This document shows, piece by piece, positions 6,868 to 31,449 of a stretch of DNA of 35,262 nucleotides. Within the stretch, counting starts at the first letter, position 1. The number at the start of each line of letters is the position of its first letter. The position numbers were made by a program, and so were the translations under genes. The notes beneath the pieces are model-generated. The model ran no database searches. It saw only the letters and a program-made list of their open reading frames with translations, and was not told where the DNA came from. The DNA is from Oscillospiraceae bacterium. Its GTDB lineage: Bacteria > Bacillota > Clostridia > Oscillospirales > Oscillospiraceae. The DNA is taken from assembly GCA_902765595.1 (NCBI GenBank), contig CACXAQ010000017.1:1-35262 (forward strand), in the 5' to 3' direction.

Positions 6868-7962
6868 ATGGCAATCAGTGACAGAAAAAAGAAGATCCTG
6901 GCCGCCGTGGTGGACGAATACATCCGCACGGCAGAGCCGGTGGGCAGCAAGGCCATCGCCCAGCGGGGAGAGCTGAAATGCTCCTCCGCCACCATCCGCA
7001 ACGAACTGGCGGAGCTGGTGGCGCTGGGCTATCTGGAGCAGCCCCACACCTCGGCCGGCCGCGTCCCCACGCCCATGGGCTACCGGATGTACGTCAACGA
7101 GCTGATGGAGAGGCAGAAGCTGAGCCTGGAGGAGTCGGAGGAGATGAACCTCCGCCTCAACCAGAAGCTCCAGGAGCTGGACGACACCATCAAGGACGTG
7201 AGCCGCCTGGCTTCCCAGCTGACCGACTATCCCGCCCTGGCCCTGACGGCCCAGAGCTCTGTGACGGTCAAGCGATACGACCTGATCTATGTGGACGCCA
7301 ACAACTTCATCATCGTCCTGATGCTCTCCTCCAACGCGGTCAAGAGCAAGCTGGTGCATCTGCCGGTCTCGGCGGATCAGGAACTGGTGCAGCGGCTCTC
7401 CACCTTGTTCAACGCCAGCTTTACCGGACTTGCCGAGGCGGAGATCACGCCTGTCAAGATCCACGCCGCCGAGCGGGCGGCGGACGACCAGCTGGGCCTC
7501 ACGGCGGTGATCTCCGCCTTCGTGCTGGAGACCCTGGCCGAGGCCAACACCCCCACGGCCTTCCTGTCCGGCGAGAACCGGCTGCTGAACCAGCCGGAGT
7601 TCCGGGACCCGGACAAGGCCCATAAGCTGATGAGCTATCTCTCCGGCGGCGGCACCATCCTGCCCTCCGCTGAGGGGATGCAGCCCAGCGACGAGGTGCG
7701 GGTGCTGATCGGGCCGGAGAACGTGGCCGAGGAGCTGAAGGATTCCAGTGTGGTCATCGCCAGCTATGACGCCGGCGACAATACCCGGGGCCTCATCGGC
7801 GTGGTGGGCCCCACCCGCATGGACTATTCCGCCGTGGCCGCGAAGCTGAGCTTCCTGGCCGCCGGCCTGAGCCGCCGTCTGGGCGGCGGAGAGGCGCCCC
7901 CCGAGGGACTGCACAACAAGCTGATTATCAAGGAGATCGACGACGGACATGAACGAAGATAA
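6868..7962 (+). CDS. hrcA: Heat-inducible transcription repressor HrcA
   Basis: The 364-residue protein has an N-terminal winged helix (residues 1-80; AISDRKKKILAAVVDEYIRT, then SSATIRNELAELVALGYLEQ and PHTSAGRVPT, all hallmark HrcA stretches). A GAF-like dimerisation domain follows, including a C-terminal VGPTRMDYS segment. HrcA binds CIRCE when folded by chaperonin and is lost under heat stress. The start at 6868 has TGAGGA five bases upstream and lies about 100 bases after the promoter. The gene overlaps grpE by 14 bases, implying translational coupling. As first gene after CIRCE it represses its own operon. Confidence 0.97.
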   Translation: MAISDRKKKILAAVVDEYIRTAEPVGSKAIAQRGELKCSSATIRNELAELVALGYLEQPHTSAGRVPTPMGYRMYVNELMERQKLSLEESEEMNLRLNQKLQELDDTIKDVSRLASQLTDYPALALTAQSSVTVKRYDLIYVDANNFIIVLMLSSNAVKSKLVHLPVSADQELVQRLSTLFNASFTGLAEAEITPVKIHAAERAADDQLGLTAVISAFVLETLAEANTPTAFLSGENRLLNQPEFRDPDKAHKLMSYLSGGGTILPSAEGMQPSDEVRVLIGPENVAEELKDSSVVIASYDAGDNTRGLIGVVGPTRMDYSAVAAKLSFLAAGLSRRLGGGEAPPEGLHNKLIIKEIDDGHERR

Positions 7963-8533
7963 AAATGAGACCGAAGAGCTGAAGGAAGAAAACGCTCAAG
8001 AGGTCCCCACGGAAGAAAAAGAGGACAAAAAGCCGGAGAAAAAGGACAAAAAGGCCGGCAGGAAAAAGGAGGACGAGCGCCTGACCGCCCTGGAGGCGGA
8101 GAAGGAAGCCCTGGAAAAGGACAAAGCCGCTCTCAACGACAAGTACCTGCGCATCTGCGCCGAGTACGACAACTTCCGCCGCCGCAGCCAGAAGGAAAAA
8201 GACAATCTCTACGGCGACATCAAGGCCGACACCGTGCAGAAGTTCCTGCCGGTCTACGACAACCTGGAGCGGGCCCTGAAGCAGGGCACCGAGGACGAGG
8301 CCTACCGCAAGGGCGTGGAGATGATCATGACCCAGTTCTGCGCCACCCTGGAGAAGCTGGGTGTGAAGAAGATCGAGAGCCTGGGCAAGACCTTTGACCC
8401 CGCCTTTCACAACGCGGTGATGCATGTGGACGACGAGGAGCAGGGCGAGAACGTGATCGTGGAGGTCTTCCAGGAGGGCTTTACCATAGGCGAAAAGGTG
8501 ATTCGCTTCGCCATGGTCAAGGTGGCCAACTGA
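7949..8533 (+). CDS. grpE: Nucleotide exchange factor GrpE
   Basis: The 194-residue protein starts with a highly charged Lys/Glu-rich region (residues 1-45). A long coiled coil follows (about 46-100, with LRICAEYDNFRRRSQKEK, the GrpE dimer signature). A C-terminal beta domain has the family pattern FDPAFHNAVMHVDDEEQGEN...GFTIGEKVIRFAMVKVAN. GrpE releases ADP from DnaK. The ATG lies inside the end of hrcA and is followed by an 83-base gap to dnaK. Confidence 0.96.
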   Translation: MNEDKNETEELKEENAQEVPTEEKEDKKPEKKDKKAGRKKEDERLTALEAEKEALEKDKAALNDKYLRICAEYDNFRRRSQKEKDNLYGDIKADTVQKFLPVYDNLERALKQGTEDEAYRKGVEMIMTQFCATLEKLGVKKIESLGKTFDPAFHNAVMHVDDEEQGENVIVEVFQEGFTIGEKVIRFAMVKVAN

Positions 8534-8616: not shown

Positions 8617-10485
<1,869 letters not shown>

Positions 10486-10524: not shown

Positions 10525-10559
10525 GCCATTGAGCTGAGCTGCCCGCTCAGCTCAATGGC
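10525..10559. repeat. Perfect 15-bp hairpin downstream of dnaK
   Basis: The arms at 10525-10539 and 10545-10559 are fully complementary around a five-base loop. Neither strand has a following T-run, so it is not a standard terminator. It may protect the dnaK 3' end or attenuate dnaJ. It abuts the repeat element at 10565-10768, with which it may form one cluster. Confidence 0.7.
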
Positions 10560-10564
10560 GCGTC

Positions 10565-10768
10565 ATAATGATTATATGATGGCGAAAAGCCAAAGGCCTT
10601 TTCGCCGCGTCGCTTTGCGGCGCAGCAAAACAGCGCGGCTGTTTTGCCATATATTCATTGCAATGAGCATCGGGCGAATGATTCAAAGAACCATTCGCTG
10701 CCAAACCTGTAGTTTGGCAGCGAAATCAATCGATGATACGATTGATTTCGCTTTCCGATAATCATTAT
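10565..10768 (+). repeat. Multi-hairpin intergenic repeat, copy A
   Basis: This 204-bp non-coding block fills the dnaK-dnaJ gap. It is bounded by perfect 11-bp terminal inverted repeats (ATAATGATTAT at 10565-10575 and ATAATCATTAT at 10758-10768). Inside are six consecutive hairpins at about 10581-10606, 10607-10623, 10625-10647, 10674-10698, 10697-10721 and 10720-10751, the last with a 13-bp perfect stem. The same hairpins recur in the same order, in inverted orientation, at 30318-30498. Copy A additionally has a TCATTGCAATGA palindrome near 10655. Confidence 0.85.
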
Positions 10769-10790: not shown

Positions 10791-11951
10791 ATGGCAGAAA
10801 AACGAGATTACTATGAGGTCCTGGGCGTGGCGAAGGACGCCTCGGCCGAGGACATAAAGAAGGCATATCGCAAGGTCACCAAGGCTAACCACCCGGATCT
10901 GCACCCCGGCGACAAGGAGTGCGAGGAGCGCTTCAAGGAGGCAAACGAAGCCTACGAGGTGCTGTCCGACGAGGAGAAGCGCAAGAAGTATGACCAGTTC
11001 GGCCACGCGGCCTTTGACCCCAACGCGGGCTACGGCGCCGGCGGCGCCGGCGGCTTCGGCGACTTCGGCGGCGGCTTCGGGGATCTGGGCGACCTGTTCG
11101 GCGACCTGTTCAGCGGCTTCGGCGGCTTTGGCGGCTTCGGCGGCGGCACCCGGTCCAATCCCAACGCCCCCCGTCGGGGCGACAATGTGCGCGCCCAGGT
11201 GAACATCAGCTTCGAGGAGGCGGCCTTTGGCTGCGAGAAGGAGATCACCACCGCCCGCATCGAGCAGTGCCCCGACTGCAAGGGCAGCGGCTGCGCCCCC
11301 GGCACCACCGCCGAGGTCTGCCCCGACTGCAAGGGCACCGGCTCCGTCCGCACCACCCAGCGCACCCCCTTCGGCATGGCCCAGTCCATGGGCCCCTGCC
11401 AGAAGTGCCGCGGCACCGGCAAGATCATTCACCAGCCCTGCAAGACCTGCCGCGGGCTTGGCAGCATCCGCCGCCAGCACAAGATGACCGTGAAGATCCC
11501 CGCCGGCATCGACGACGGGCAGAGCATCTCCCGGGCGGGCTACGGCAACGCCGGCGTCAACGGCGGCCCCGCCGGAGACCTGCTGATCTCCGTCATCGTC
11601 CGGCCCCACGCCATTTTTGAGCGGGAGGGCGCCAATGTGTACATGGAGCAGGAGATCAGCTTCACCCAGGCCACCCTGGGCGCGGAGCTGGAGCTGCCCA
11701 CTCTGGACGGCAAGGTGAAATACACCATCCCCGAGGGCACCCAGCCCGGCACCACCTTCCGCCTGCGGGGCAAGGGCATCCCCTATCTGCGCAGCCCCTC
11801 CACCCGGGGCGATCAGTTCGTCACCGTGCGGGTGGGCGTGCCCCGGAACCTGAACAGCAATCAGAAGGAGCTGCTGCGCCAGTATGCCGCCGCCATGGGC
11901 GAGGGCGATACCGGCAAGTCCGGCGGCCTCTTCGGCAAAAAGAAAAAATAA
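10791..11951 (+). CDS. dnaJ: Co-chaperone DnaJ (Hsp40)
   Basis: The 386-residue type I J-protein has a J domain (residues 1-70, with the catalytic H-P-D in [10 protein letters not shown]). A Gly/Phe-rich linker spans about 78-120. The zinc domain has four CxxCxGxG-type repeats ([32 protein letters not shown]). Two beta-rich C-terminal substrate domains follow. It stimulates the DnaK ATPase and delivers clients. GGAG lies upstream of the ATG. It is separated from dnaK by 305 bases filled with hairpins, unlike the compact hrcA-grpE spacing, which may lower its expression relative to dnaK. Confidence 0.97.
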
Positions 11952-27883: not shown

Positions 27884-29254
27884 ATGGCATTTGAGAGCTT
27901 ATCCGACAAACTGAATGCCGCGTTCAAACGCCTGCGCGGCAAGGGAAGGCTGTCGTCCTCCGACGTGAAGGAGGCCATGCGCGAGGTGCGCATGGCGCTG
28001 CTGGAGGCGGACGTCAGCTACAAGGTGGTCAAGGACTTCACCAAAAAGGTCACCGACCGGGCTGTAGGCGCCGACGTGCTGGAGGCCCTGAATCCGGCCC
28101 AGATGGTCATCAAGATCGTCAATGAGGAGCTCTGCGCCCTCATGGGCGGCCAGAACCAGAAGCTGAACATCTCTTCCAAGAGCCCGAGCGTTGTGATGCT
28201 GGTGGGCCTGCAGGGCGCGGGCAAGACCACCAACGGCGCAAAGCTTGCCGGCTACATGCGCCGCCAGGGCAAGCGCCCGCTGCTGGTGGCCTGCGACGTG
28301 TACCGCCCCGCCGCCATCAAGCAGCTGGAGACCGTGGGCGCCCAGTTGGACATCCCCGTGTTCCAGATGGGGCAGATCGACCCGGTGGACATTGCCAAGG
28401 CCGGCATCGAGCACGCCAAAAAGCACGGCAACGACCTGGTGTTCCTGGACACCGCCGGCCGCCTCCACATCGACGAGGCGCTGATGCAGGAGCTTCAGAA
28501 CATCAAGGCTGCCGTGGAGCCGGCGGAGATCCTGCTGGTGGTGGACGCCATGACCGGTCAGGACGCGGTGAACGCCGCCTCCGCCTTTGACGAGGCCCTG
28601 GATATCACCGGCGTGATGCTCTCCAAGCTGGACGGCGACGCCAGAGGCGGCGCGGCCCTCTCCATCCGGGCTGCCACCGGCAAGCCCATCAAGTTCATGG
28701 GCGTGGGCGAGAAGCTGGATCAGATCGAGCCCTTCCACCCGGACCGCATGGCCTCCCGCATCCTGGGCATGGGCGACATGCTGACCCTCATCGAAAAGGC
28801 CGAGCAGAGCTTTGACGAGAAGAAGGCCCTGGAGGCGGCGGAAAAGCTGCGGGCCAACCGCTTCTCCCTCAGCGACTATCTGGATCAGATGAAGCAGCTG
28901 AAGGGCATGGGCGATCTGGAGAGCCTGGCCGGCATGATTCCCGGCGTGGACGCCAAGGCCCTCAAGGGCGCCAAGATGGACGAAAAGGCCCTGGCCCGTC
29001 AGGAGGCCATCATCCTCTCCATGACCCAGGCCGAGCGGGACAACCCCGCCATGCTCAACTCCAGCCGGAAAAAGCGCATCGCCGCGGGCTCCGGCACCAG
29101 TGTGGTGGACGTGAACCGCCTGCTCAAGCAGTTCGAGGCCATGCAGCAGATGATGAAGCAGTTCTCCGGCAAGAACATGAAGAAGCTGCAAAAGAAAATG
29201 GGCAAAATGGGCGGTATGGGCGGAGGCTTCCCCGGCCTCGGCGGCCTGTTCTGA
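27884..29254 (+). CDS. ffh: Signal recognition particle GTPase Ffh
   Basis: The 456-residue protein has the N domain (residues 1-95) and a G domain with GLQGAGKTTNGAKLAGY (P-loop), VACDVYRPAAIKQL, FLDTAGRLHIDEAL and SKLDGDARGGAALS. A Met-rich M domain starts at about residue 295 (GMGDMLTLIEKAEQSFDEKK). The tail is Gly/Met-rich and ends GGGFPGLGGLF. It targets nascent membrane proteins to FtsY and SecYEG with SRP RNA. Its last 55 bases are repeated at 29366-29420 after a hairpin insert, so the present stop region may be a reconstituted 3' end. GGAG precedes the ATG. Confidence 0.97.
   Translation: MAFESLSDKLNAAFKRLRGKGRLSSSDVKEAMREVRMALLEADVSYKVVKDFTKKVTDRAVGADVLEALNPAQMVIKIVNEELCALMGGQNQKLNISSKSPSVVMLVGLQGAGKTTNGAKLAGYMRRQGKRPLLVACDVYRPAAIKQLETVGAQLDIPVFQMGQIDPVDIAKAGIEHAKKHGNDLVFLDTAGRLHIDEALMQELQNIKAAVEPAEILLVVDAMTGQDAVNAASAFDEALDITGVMLSKLDGDARGGAALSIRAATGKPIKFMGVGEKLDQIEPFHPDRMASRILGMGDMLTLIEKAEQSFDEKKALEAAEKLRANRFSLSDYLDQMKQLKGMGDLESLAGMIPGVDAKALKGAKMDEKALARQEAIILSMTQAERDNPAMLNSSRKKRIAAGSGTSVVDVNRLLKQFEAMQQMMKQFSGKNMKKLQKKMGKMGGMGGGFPGLGGLF
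29200..29254 (+). repeat. 55-bp direct repeat, copy 1 (ffh 3' end)
   Basis: These bases encode the last 17 residues and stop of ffh. They recur at 29366-29420 with 54 of 55 identical; the only difference is C at 29251 versus T at 29417, four bases from the end. Confidence 0.93.
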
Positions 29255-29365: not shown

Positions 29366-29420
29366 GGGCAAAATGGGCGGTATGGGCGGAGGCTTCCCCG
29401 GCCTCGGCGGCCTGTTTTGA
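29366..29420 (+). repeat. 55-bp direct repeat, copy 2 (displaced ffh 3' end)
   Basis: It duplicates the ffh 3' end, including a TGA stop, but lies 112 bases beyond the functional stop and has no start of its own. A small CCCC-GCCA-GGGG hairpin follows, without a T-run. Confidence 0.93.
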
Positions 29421-29767: not shown

Positions 29768-29998
29768 ATGAAAGAACTTTTGACCTACATCGTACAGAGC
29801 CTGGTCGATCATCCCGACGAGGTCTCTGTGACCGAGCGCAAGGCCGACGGCGAGACCGTGTTTGAGGTCCGCGTCGCCGACGGCGATATGGGCAAGGTCA
29901 TTGGCCGGCAGGGACGGATCGTCAAGCAGATCCGCGTTCTCATGCGGGCCGTCGCCCAGAAGAAGGGCAAGAAGATCTCCGTGGAGATCCTCGACTAA
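29768..29998 (+). CDS. khpA: KH-domain RNA-binding protein KhpA
   Basis: The 76-residue single KH-domain protein carries the GxxG loop in VIGRQGRIVKQIRVLM, preceded by VRVADGDMGK. KhpA (YlqC) forms a complex with KhpB/Jag and binds RNAs, influencing cell elongation and division in Firmicutes. Its stop codon TAA lies in the left arm of the terminator that starts the tandem cassette array. Confidence 0.95.
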   Translation: MKELLTYIVQSLVDHPDEVSVTERKADGETVFEVRVADGDMGKVIGRQGRIVKQIRVLMRAVAQKKGKKISVEILD

Positions 29999-30266
29999 AA
30001 AGCACAGGCTATCAGCCTGTGCTTTTTTGTGCATCAAAGCCGGTTGCCGCGCAAGCGGCGAGGCTTTGGCACATCGAATTTTTCCGCGCGAAGCGCGCGA
30101 AAGCACAGGCTATCAGCCTGTGCTTTTTTTGTGCATCAAAGCCGGTTGCCGCGCAAGCGGCGAGGCTTTGGCACATCAAAATATTCCGCGCGAAGCGCGC
30201 GAAAGCAGAGGCGTTTGCCTCTGCTTTTTTGTGCATCAAAGCCGGTTGCCGCGCAAGCGGCGAGGC
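29997..30266 (+). repeat. Three tandem ~101-bp cassettes, each headed by an intrinsic terminator
   Basis: Each unit begins with a terminator hairpin and T-run, then a hairpin with the arms CAAAGCC and GGCTTT around GCCGC-GCAA-GCGGC, and (units 1 and 2) CGCGCGAAGCGCG. Unit starts, taken at the GCAC/GCAG of the terminator stem, are 30002, 30103 and 30205. Terminator stems are GCACAGGC/GCCTGTGC in units 1 and 2 but GCAGAGGC/GCCTCTGC in unit 3. The base-pair swap is compensated on the other arm. Unit 1 terminates the rpsP-khpA transcript. Unit 3 is truncated after the second hairpin. Confidence 0.92.
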
Positions 30267-30317
30267 ATTTTTGTGGGGTCCACCGCCCGAAAGGAACCTT
30301 TTTTCGCGCCCGCCGTC

Positions 30318-30498
30318 ATAATGATCATCGGATGGCGAAATCAATCGAGAATTCGATTGATTTCGCTGCCAAACGACAGGTTTGGCAGCGAATGATTCTC
30401 AAAATCATTCGCCCGGCAAAACAGCCATGCTGTTTTGCTGCGCAGCAACGCTGCGCGGCGAAAAGCTTTTTCGCTTTTCGCCATCATATAACCATTAT
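30318..30498 (-). repeat. Multi-hairpin intergenic repeat, copy B (inverted relative to copy A)
   Basis: This 181-bp element is homologous to the reverse complement of 10565-10768. Its ends are imperfect inverted repeats (ATAATGATCAT and ATAACCATTAT). It contains the same series of hairpins. One has a 14-bp perfect stem (GCGAAATCAATCGA at 30335-30348 with 30353-30366). Others have arms of GCTGCCAAA, CGAATGATT, GCAAAACAGC, GCGCAGC and GGCGAAAAGC. It lies upstream of the lipoprotein promoter, after the cassette array. Confidence 0.85.
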
Positions 30499-30511: not shown

Positions 30512-30540
30512 TTGTAAAGGCAAACATTTTCCGATATAAT
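30512..30540 (+). promoter_or_regulatory. Promoter of the lipoprotein gene
   Basis: TTGTAA (30512-30517) and a perfect TATAAT (30535-30540) are 17 bases apart, 30 bases before the start at 30571. Confidence 0.8.
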
Positions 30541-30570: not shown

Positions 30571-31449
30571 ATGAAAAACATGAAAAAGCTCCTGGCCCTT
30601 GCCCTGGCGCTGGTGCTGACCCTGTGCCTCTGTGCCTGCAGCGCCCCCGGATTTCTGAAGAAGCCCCTGACTTTTGAGGAAAAGCTGGCCAAGTCCGCCG
30701 AGCAGATGGAGCAGGCCAAGAGCATGCACATGGATATGAACATGGATATGGGCCTGCGCGTGGCCATGTCCGGTCAGAGCCAGACCATGGACATGTCCGC
30801 CCGTTATGCCACAGACCTGCAGAACGAGCCGATGAAGATGCACATGACCATGGACATCTCCGCCTTGGGCATGAACCAGAAGATGATCTATTACGCCGAG
30901 CAGGACGGCGACGCGGTAACGGTCTATATCTCCCTGGACGACGGCGCCCACTGGACCAAAGAGACCATCTCCTCCCTTTCGGATGTTGTGCCGCAAGACC
31001 TGAATCAGCAGACAGATCTGTTCCTGGCCAGCGCGGCGAGCTTCACCGAGACGGGGAAGGAGGAGATCAACGGCTCCGCCGCCACGGTGTATTCCGGCGT
31101 GATCTCCGGGGAGTACGTGGAGGAGACGATCGAAGCCTCCGGTGCCCTGGACGCCTTCTCCAATGCGCTGGGCGTGGACGTGCCCGAGGATCTGTTCCGG
31201 GATCTGGGCGATATCCCCACCACCATCGCCATCGACGACGGGAGCAATCTCGTGGTGCGGTATACCATGGATATGGGGGCTGTCATGCAGGGCCTGATGG
31301 AGAAGATGATGGGGCTGGTGCTGCAGAGCGCCGGGGAGACCGACGGGGGATTGGAGCTGAACATCGACCGGATGCTGATCACCATGACCCTCTCCCAGGT
31401 CAACAGCATAGGGGAGATCGTGATCCCGAAGGAGGCCGTGGCTGCATAA
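30571..31449 (+). CDS. Predicted lipoprotein, LolA/DUF6612-like
   Basis: The 292-residue protein has a lipoprotein signal peptide: MKNMKKLLALALALVLTLC followed by the lipobox L-C-A-C, with the modified Cys at about residue 23. The mature part is a probable beta-sheet protein with alternating Met/polar residues (MHMDMNMDMG, MKMHMTMDI). This is the strand pattern of the LolA/LppX-like folds seen in Clostridial DUF6612-type lipoproteins. That family assignment is tentative. It would be attached to the outer face of the membrane by Lgt (encoded at 16743-17681). Start 30571 has GAGAGGAG upstream. It has its own promoter and terminator and interrupts the usual khpA-rimM junction. Confidence 0.85.
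   Translation: MKNMKKLLALALALVLTLCLCACSAPGFLKKPLTFEEKLAKSAEQMEQAKSMHMDMNMDMGLRVAMSGQSQTMDMSARYATDLQNEPMKMHMTMDISALGMNQKMIYYAEQDGDAVTVYISLDDGAHWTKETISSLSDVVPQDLNQQTDLFLASAASFTETGKEEINGSAATVYSGVISGEYVEETIEASGALDAFSNALGVDVPEDLFRDLGDIPTTIAIDDGSNLVVRYTMDMGAVMQGLMEKMMGLVLQSAGETDGGLELNIDRMLITMTLSQVNSIGEIVIPKEAVAA

Follow-up and report, generated by a model that had tools for sequence, protein, structure and literature searches.

The window analysed here (the whole stretch of 35,262 nucleotides, contig C17 in a draft genome assembly of 2.14 Mb and 61 contigs, 84% complete) carries two copies of a short intergenic element that very probably belongs to a new family of non-autonomous, mobile, MITE-like elements, which fold into two tandem cloverleafs, insert with a duplication of the dinucleotide AT and often take the -10 box of a promoter as their target. 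The nearest relatives by dnaK are metagenome-assembled genomes (MAGs) of Oscillospiraceae, many of whose names hint at a ruminant-gut origin, and judging from these names the bacterium is probably a gut dweller.

The two copies in the window

Copy A, a complete element of 204 bp (positions 10565-10768, plus strand; located by blastn, alignment and folding), lies in the gap between dnaK (8617-10485, plus strand; Pfam HSP70) and dnaJ (10791-11951, plus strand; Pfam DnaJ and DnaJ_C). With hrcA (6868-7962) and grpE (7949-8533) ahead of dnaK, both recognized in the same Pfam scan, the gene order is hrcA-grpE-dnaK-dnaJ. Copy B, of 181 bp (30318-30498, minus strand; located by alignment), follows ffh (27884-29254) and precedes a gene for a DUF6612 protein (30571-31449, plus strand; assigned by Pfam, the frame being taken from the ATG at 30571), and a promoter-like sequence, TTGTAA-17-TATAAT, was seen by eye between copy B and this gene (30512-30540, plus strand). 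The coordinates and the opposite orientation of the two blocks, as given in an earlier sequence-only reading, were borne out, the copies being 87% complementary across two blocks of 98 and 84 nt, and the six shared hairpins that it described exist in both. Copy B is without 23 nt of the middle of the element, namely the inner closing strand of unit 1, the joint and the larger part of the inner strand of unit 2; because of this it cannot close both cloverleafs as copy A does, and the six hairpins are retained.

The same reading had described the element as non-coding and strongly base-paired and as having no transposase nearby; both statements hold, and none of the 27 reading frames in the window matched a transposase or recombinase family in the Pfam scan. 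Its suggestion of an attenuation or mRNA-stability module between dnaK and dnaJ, taken as a conserved role, is not supported, the element being absent from all 29 of the other dnaJ loci searched in the genus. In G059, the nearest relative by dnaJ, the dnaK-dnaJ gap reads GGCGCGTATCAAGGAG, which is consistent with an insertion of copy A at AT, although the divergence precludes an exact call.

A hairpin followed by a TGGYGCGTA-like sequence occupies positions 10535-10563 of the window; by eye, the same is present in the dnaK-dnaJ gap of many of the genus loci L192-L220, and it may represent a conserved element between the two cistrons. Inserts of other kinds, repeat-like or rich in hairpins, were seen by eye in the dnaK-dnaJ gaps of L043, L044, L057, L061, L097, L098 and L217, and because such inserts seem to occupy the gap in relatives, it may tolerate insertions. 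Adjoining copy B, three tandem, hairpin-rich units of about 102 bp are located at 29990-30280; no likeness to the element was seen in them, and no copy of them was found in the other loci compared. The final 55 nt of the ffh frame (29200-29254) recur with 98% identity at 29366-29420, about 110 nt downstream.

Two tandem cloverleafs

In the full element, two cloverleafs follow each other in tandem, and each is made of three hairpins and closed by a stem of its own. The element can be described as two inverted and diverged units, joined tail to tail by a 2-nt, non-AT joint and bounded by terminal inverted repeats (TIRs). In copy A, the left AT dinucleotide (10565-10566; target duplication or core, as judged from empty sites of the family) is followed by the 5' strand of the closing stem of unit 1, which is the left outer TIR (10567-10577), by hairpins 1, 2 and 3 (10581-10606, 10607-10623 and 10625-10647) and by the 3' strand of the closing stem, which is an inner half-TIR (10649-10659). 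After the joint GC (10660-10661; defined by the alignment of 169 copies), unit 2 consists of the 5' strand of its closing stem, the other inner half-TIR (10662-10673), its hairpins 1 to 3, designated H5 (10674-10698), H6 (10699-10719) and H7 (10720-10751), and the 3' strand, the right outer TIR (10755-10766), and the right AT dinucleotide (10767-10768; again from family-level empty sites) ends the element. All of these stems and hairpins are given on the plus strand on the basis of covariation and folding. The hairpins of copy B, assigned on the minus strand by alignment, are at 30457-30482, 30440-30456 and 30416-30438 for unit 1, and at 30388-30412, 30367-30387 and 30335-30366 for unit 2.

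What looks like a central hairpin, CCATATACTCATT-GC-AATGAGCATCGG, is thus a pair of half-TIRs, the left half pairing with the left TIR and the right half with the right TIR. Read inward, the outer ends of units 1 and 2 are AATGATnATnnGATGGCGAAA, and the outer ends of the element can be written as ATAATGAYTATnnGATGG and CCATCnGATnATCATTAT. Positions 1-7 and 198-204 of the model show at least 96% identity across the 169 copies, with gaps left out, and the joint is GC in 143 of the 169 aligned copies and AT in none. That unit 2 is inverted with respect to unit 1 is also seen in 21 of the 37 loci searched, in which the cloverleaf covariance model (R2, below) matches both strands. Terminal repeats had been proposed before, at a length of 11 bp; they are present, and their length is about 16-18 nt. 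The pairing of the outer TIRs with each other was not retained, each of them pairing better with a half-TIR in the centre.

The minimum-energy fold of copy A, whether calculated as RNA or as DNA, is the two cloverleafs, with nearly all of the 204 bp paired and an energy of -99.9 kcal/mol compared with a mean of -54.6 for shuffled sequences (z = -9.7). Among 156 copies of 195-212 nt, two three-hairpin cloverleafs are the minimum-energy shape in 112, with none among the 156 shuffled sequences; in 34 of these copies the outer TIRs are paired instead.

Covariation supports the same pairing. Our first covariance model, R1, was built from 48 copies and placed seven hairpins inside one terminal stem. 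In the 48-copy alignment, 96.5% of its cells pair and 18 pairs show double changes versus 5.7 in shuffled alignments, and the six hairpins alone show 57 distinct double-change pair types in 169 copies, so that the covariation pointed out in the sequence-only reading is confirmed; its example, GCGTCGC/GCGGCGC, is present in the sequence and contains one G.U pair. The outer-TIR stem of R1, however, shows no double change at all. In the closing stems of the cloverleafs, seven pairs and 14 cells are changed on both sides (shuffles: 1.5 and 1.6), while the rival pairing of outer TIRs and central hairpin has one such pair and two such cells (shuffles: 2.4 and 3.4). When the partners were slid by one column, seven pairs and 10 cells were also double-changed, but only 18% of the cells were paired. 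Over the 169 copies, the closing stems are Watson-Crick in 92% and 94% of cells and the outer TIRs, paired mutually, in 81%. Because its outer stem and central hairpin covary no more than shuffles, R1 was rejected and replaced by R2, a second covariance model with the cloverleaf pairing.

Of 23 diverged loci, none of which had been used in building either model, 19 gave a higher score with R2 than with R1; R2 scored lower on L180, L181 and L183 and lost L184 (the comparison includes L183 and L184 and excludes L454). Folding of diverged or shortened relatives gave the two-cloverleaf shape in 13 of 17 in one set and 14 of 25 in a second, overlapping set, several of the misses being deletion derivatives. 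In L447 (genome G501, 29% GC) and L448 (G610), the order of TIR, three hairpins, half-TIR, half-TIR, three hairpins and TIR is kept although most of the stem sequence is replaced, and the centre CATT-nn-AATG is retained in L447 and changed in L448. In other families of the order, too, the hairpins remain the same in number, in order and, roughly, in length, although the stems are replaced. Quite different stems and ends, with cloverleaf pairs or partly so, were noticed in L182 (G373) and in L453 and L464 (G815), and these elements are possible further subfamilies.

Distribution, mobility and target sites

In the host draft genome, 43 copies or fragments were counted among the fetched loci after merging and a check of the modules. 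A blastn search of this genome gave at least 84 matches with copy A (40 of 58 candidate stretches scored) and at least 72 with copy B (40 of 53 scored), and the TIR pattern ATAATGAYYAT occurs 54 times, compared with once for the reversed control. Three contigs (C29, C32 and C46) were seen to start within copies of the element; the repeat thus interrupts the draft assembly, and the true number of copies is probably higher. Across the genus, 51 of 102 genomes match copy A at E ≤ 1e-5. R1 found matches in 22 of 400 genomes of the family (13 of 106 genera) and in 9 of 394 genomes of the order, and R2 in 4 of 391 genomes of the class; each of these tallies includes the window genome, and the weakest matches in the family and order are probably due to chance. 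Copy counts at the genus, family, order and class levels are lower bounds because six or seven candidates were scored per genome. Further copies, as asked for in the earlier reading, exist in the host and its relatives, and their substitutions largely keep the pairing.

Of the matches in the class search, L473 (G1190) forms two cloverleafs and closely resembles by eye the copies of G501; because of this resemblance and a contamination of 5% in the MAG, it may be foreign to G1190. L474 (G1013) has a cloverleaf fold in its first unit only, and L475 (G1195) is probably a chance match. The weak R1 matches L183, L184 and L454 resemble, by eye, unrelated hairpin arrays and were not taken as relatives. 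The element was not matched in phage and plasmid collections, and 26 contigs of IMG/VR that carry the 18-nt TIR were taken as chance matches, since none of them fits the element profile. Rfam 15 gave no match at curated scores for the window or for seven loci with diverged copies, the best weak match of copy A having E = 0.33.

The mobility of the element is supported by the features that it shares with MITEs: it is short and non-coding, has TIRs and a target duplication, and is dispersed in multiple copies. The flank pairs are distinct for 168 of the 169 copies. The outer dinucleotide is AT at the left end in 152 and at the right end in 162 of the 169 rows, the remainder being mostly alignment trimming. 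For the empty-site search, 51 element-free joined flanks were made, of which 33 complete blocks plus a portion of a 34th were searched in 10 near relatives. Five of the seven insertion sites examined gave clean empty sites, in seven comparisons with relative genomes, and a single AT is kept in each: L144 (empty in G082 and G044), L016 (G048), L126 (G096 and G043), L269 (G096) and L142 (G096). At the other two sites, L009 and L002, the relatives have diverged too far to be read. Because the empty relatives retain one AT at these five sites, the target duplication is the 2-bp AT, and a duplication of TA is ruled out. The option of a non-autonomous element, one of several offered in the earlier reading, is upheld by the dispersed copies, the TIRs and these empty sites.

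Whole hairpins are absent from many copies, and the adjacent unit 2 hairpins H5 and H6 are lost together in four. Two 151-bp copies at unrelated sites have identical deletion end points; it could be that shortened forms move, or that one short repeat has recombined twice. Single units with a CATT-AT end were found at L148 (own genome), L365 (G003) and L179 (G072). Abutting copies with one common AT were noticed at L351 (998), L352 (1659) and L354, and their joined ends form TATAAT.

In bacteria, T-AT-AAT (TATAAT) is the -10 box of promoters, and TTGACA is the consensus of the -35 box. When the flanks were rejoined around one AT and read in both directions, 47 of 167 copies (28%) had exactly TATAAT as the target in at least one of the two directions, and another 47 had five of the six letters, whereas among 3,529 other AT dinucleotides of the flanks the exact box makes up about 1.5% and five of six letters 8.2% (p ~ 1e-38 for the exact box, with the background count rounded to 53). 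Frequent insertion into T-AT-AAT or its reverse complement is thus shown statistically for the family. Of the 53 directions with an exact TATAAT (six copies being counted twice), 17 have at least five and 27 at least four of the six letters of TTGACA at a spacer of 16-18, while for the other spacers listed the counts at five letters are 0 to 2. Among 155 other TATAAT sites in the same loci, 20 have a -35 box at five letters and 48 at four; the difference has p = 0.002 and 0.008, respectively, although the background is partly coding, so that the difference would be overstated. At many of the TATAAT targets, a ribosome-binding motif and a start codon then follow by eye within some 30-50 nt. On one side or both, 117 of 162 copies have a start signal no farther than 250 bp away, although this came from a home-made heuristic with no control and the absolute number is unreliable. 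The exact box is on the plus side in 19, on the minus side in 22 and on both in six, showing no bias in orientation, and a downstream gene is present on the right only in 36 and on the left only in 50 (p = 0.16). T is found at position -1 in 112 of 168 copies of the main set and less often, in 21 of 44, among extra left ends; at -2 it is found in 94 of 168 and 25 of 44. Neither of the copies in the window is in a -10 box, the target being C-AT-CCG for copy A and C-AT-AGT for copy B.

Proposed mechanism, alternatives and known systems

The element inserts at AT with a 2-bp duplication, as five sites show, and often inside a -10 box. Because its ends read ATAATG...CATTAT, an insertion into TATAAT, with the T of the host before and AAT after, yields that same hexamer at each of the two junctions. 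From this sequence logic, the host -35 box and a perfect -10 box would remain upstream after insertion and the element would become the 5' leader of the transcript. A promoter rebuilt in this way would make the insertion cheap for the host, and cheapness would help many gene-adjacent copies to be tolerated. Mobilization would presumably occur in trans, by an enzyme coded elsewhere. With about equal likelihood, the mover may be a recombinase whose 2-bp core is AT or one of the DDE transposases that make 2-bp duplications. Both are suggested by the conserved AT of the ends, the palindromic joined ends CATT-AT-AATG and the like-to-like target; together with the unbiased orientation and the abutting copies that share an AT, these features fit a recombinase with a 2-bp core or a transposase acting via joined ends.

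No autonomous partner was found in the draft genomes in searches of the TIRs of the host genome, of 40 TIR regions of the genus, of DDE_3 and of resolvases. Of five TIR matches in the host genome outside the known copies, L158 is a degenerate copy and L160 an end fragment, and L157, L159 and L161 contain no element. The 40 further TIR regions of the genus showed a full, shortened or masked element over the roughly 90 nt read. Pfam DDE_3 (PF13358) was absent from eight genomes, the control being matched in 3 of 14, and a derivative of IS630/Tc1-mariner is not supported in view of this absence and of the duplication, which is AT and not TA. Near 30 resolvase matches in six genomes, a single element end was seen (L431), and five loci had matches with 3 mismatches, none of them flanking the gene in pairs. 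Between the close copies of L315 and of L127, the reading frames were viewed by eye.

The mismatches within the stems bear on whether RNA or DNA is the folded molecule. In the inner helices of the first model, 49 distinct G.T and 44 A.C mismatch types were found in 169 copies (p = 0.68), and in the six hairpins alone 41 and 38; by cells, G.T exceeds A.C (209 versus 120), mostly at two pairs that have inherited variants in common. Double transversions are common and one-sided intermediates few: at model positions 162-181, T-A is changed to A-T in 37 copies, with not a single T-T or A-A. These pairing facts fit a fold at the DNA level, RNA made from either orientation, or an arm-copying process alike. 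The structured RNA family that had been considered earlier therefore stands as regards conserved structure, whereas nothing in the equally common mismatch types or the unbiased orientation favors RNA over DNA. A role of the double cloverleaf in mRNA leaders, in stability, RNase processing or regulation, with selection keeping the pairs, would explain the strong covariation, the fold conserved in other families of the order after replacement of the sequence, and the frequent position of copies near gene starts (by the heuristic), but we consider it unlikely in view of the absence of orientation bias both for TATAAT and for the downstream gene, the nearly equal G.T and A.C types, and the lack of an Rfam match for the window and the seven diverged-copy loci; moreover, a transcript starting about 7 nt past the -10 box at the left end would drop the greater part of unit 1's closing strand. 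The lack of strand polarity is a weak hint that it is probably in DNA that the fold is maintained, either for recognition or as a single-stranded form.

It is also conceivable, if rather doubtful, that a mutational process in palindromic DNA, be it template switching or the correction of one arm by the other, and not selection, keeps the arms alike. The frequent double transversions with rare one-sided intermediates and the symmetric mismatch spectrum would be expected from it, but the covariation of the closing stems spans more than 70 nt, and the hairpins of other families keep their number, order and rough length though their stems are replaced; the persistence of truncated copies with missing hairpins is neutral in this respect. 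A broader, tentative possibility is a superfamily of mobile elements, present in several families of the order and perhaps reaching beyond it, whose hallmark is not sequence but the two-cloverleaf, RNA- or ssDNA-like fold, and whose members home to promoters. For the enzyme, the site of attachment would then be the -10 box or a promoter that RNA polymerase has opened, and the ends of the element, by mimicking the -10 box, would rebuild the host promoter upon insertion, with the element as the transcribed leader. Because of this mimicry, elements might also insert into each other's ends, as the neighbors that share an AT suggest.

Mobile elements usually break promoters or carry their own. In the new MITE-like family that we favor, the preferred target and the sequence of the ends match in such a way that the promoter would survive insertion. 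Because the complex, covarying fold outlasts the replacement of sequence between families, structure can serve to trace the element. In uncultured bacteria it marks natural insertions near genes by the dozen, and its conserved AT core and -10 target offer a clear search image for the moving enzyme.

REP/BIME sequences are short REP hairpins tied to a Y1 transposase (RAYT), and Correia elements duplicate TA at their target. That the element is an old member of the REP/BIME, ERIC, BOX/RUP or Correia classes is very improbable: it is likewise small, intergenic, palindromic and multi-copy, but, compared by description, it differs in the two-cloverleaf architecture, the AT duplication with a frequent -10 target and the other clade, and it was not matched in Rfam or in the phage and plasmid collections. 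In place of the TA of Correia elements it has AT, often within an existing -10 box, and the fold, compared by description, also differs. According to PMC10969869, the Correia elements of Neisseria are 204 bp long, gene-adjacent and promoter-carrying upstream of genes; the likeness, as also given in PMC2649163, extends to promoter sequences at the ends and to transcribed RNA that can be processed. BOX and RUP of Streptococcus pneumoniae, as described in PMC3049150, are similarly modular, rich in stem-loops, thought to be mobile and partly transcribed, with boxB modules that vary in number and an over-representation of BOX between convergent genes. Compared by description, however, the present element is often near gene starts and sheds whole hairpins, and in contrast to the boxA-boxB-boxC modules it has six different hairpins in two closed units. 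With MITEs in general, as reviewed in PMC10969869, it shares the short, non-coding, multi-copy and intergenic nature, TIRs, target duplication, a stable fold and presumed mobilization in trans, and it differs in the two joined three-hairpin cloverleafs, the non-AT joint, the fold that covaries across families and the frequent -10 target. In the open-licence literature we recognized no description of the element or of a MITE that prefers the -10 box, an absence that is thus not proven. The insertion of IS5 upstream of fucAO similarly creates a fusion promoter and, according to PMC11894529, activates a silent operon, whereas in the present case insertion often hits an existing -10 box, which would be rebuilt. 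The element is thus set apart from the repeat classes considered, by their descriptions, as a new MITE-like family with an unusual fold and target.
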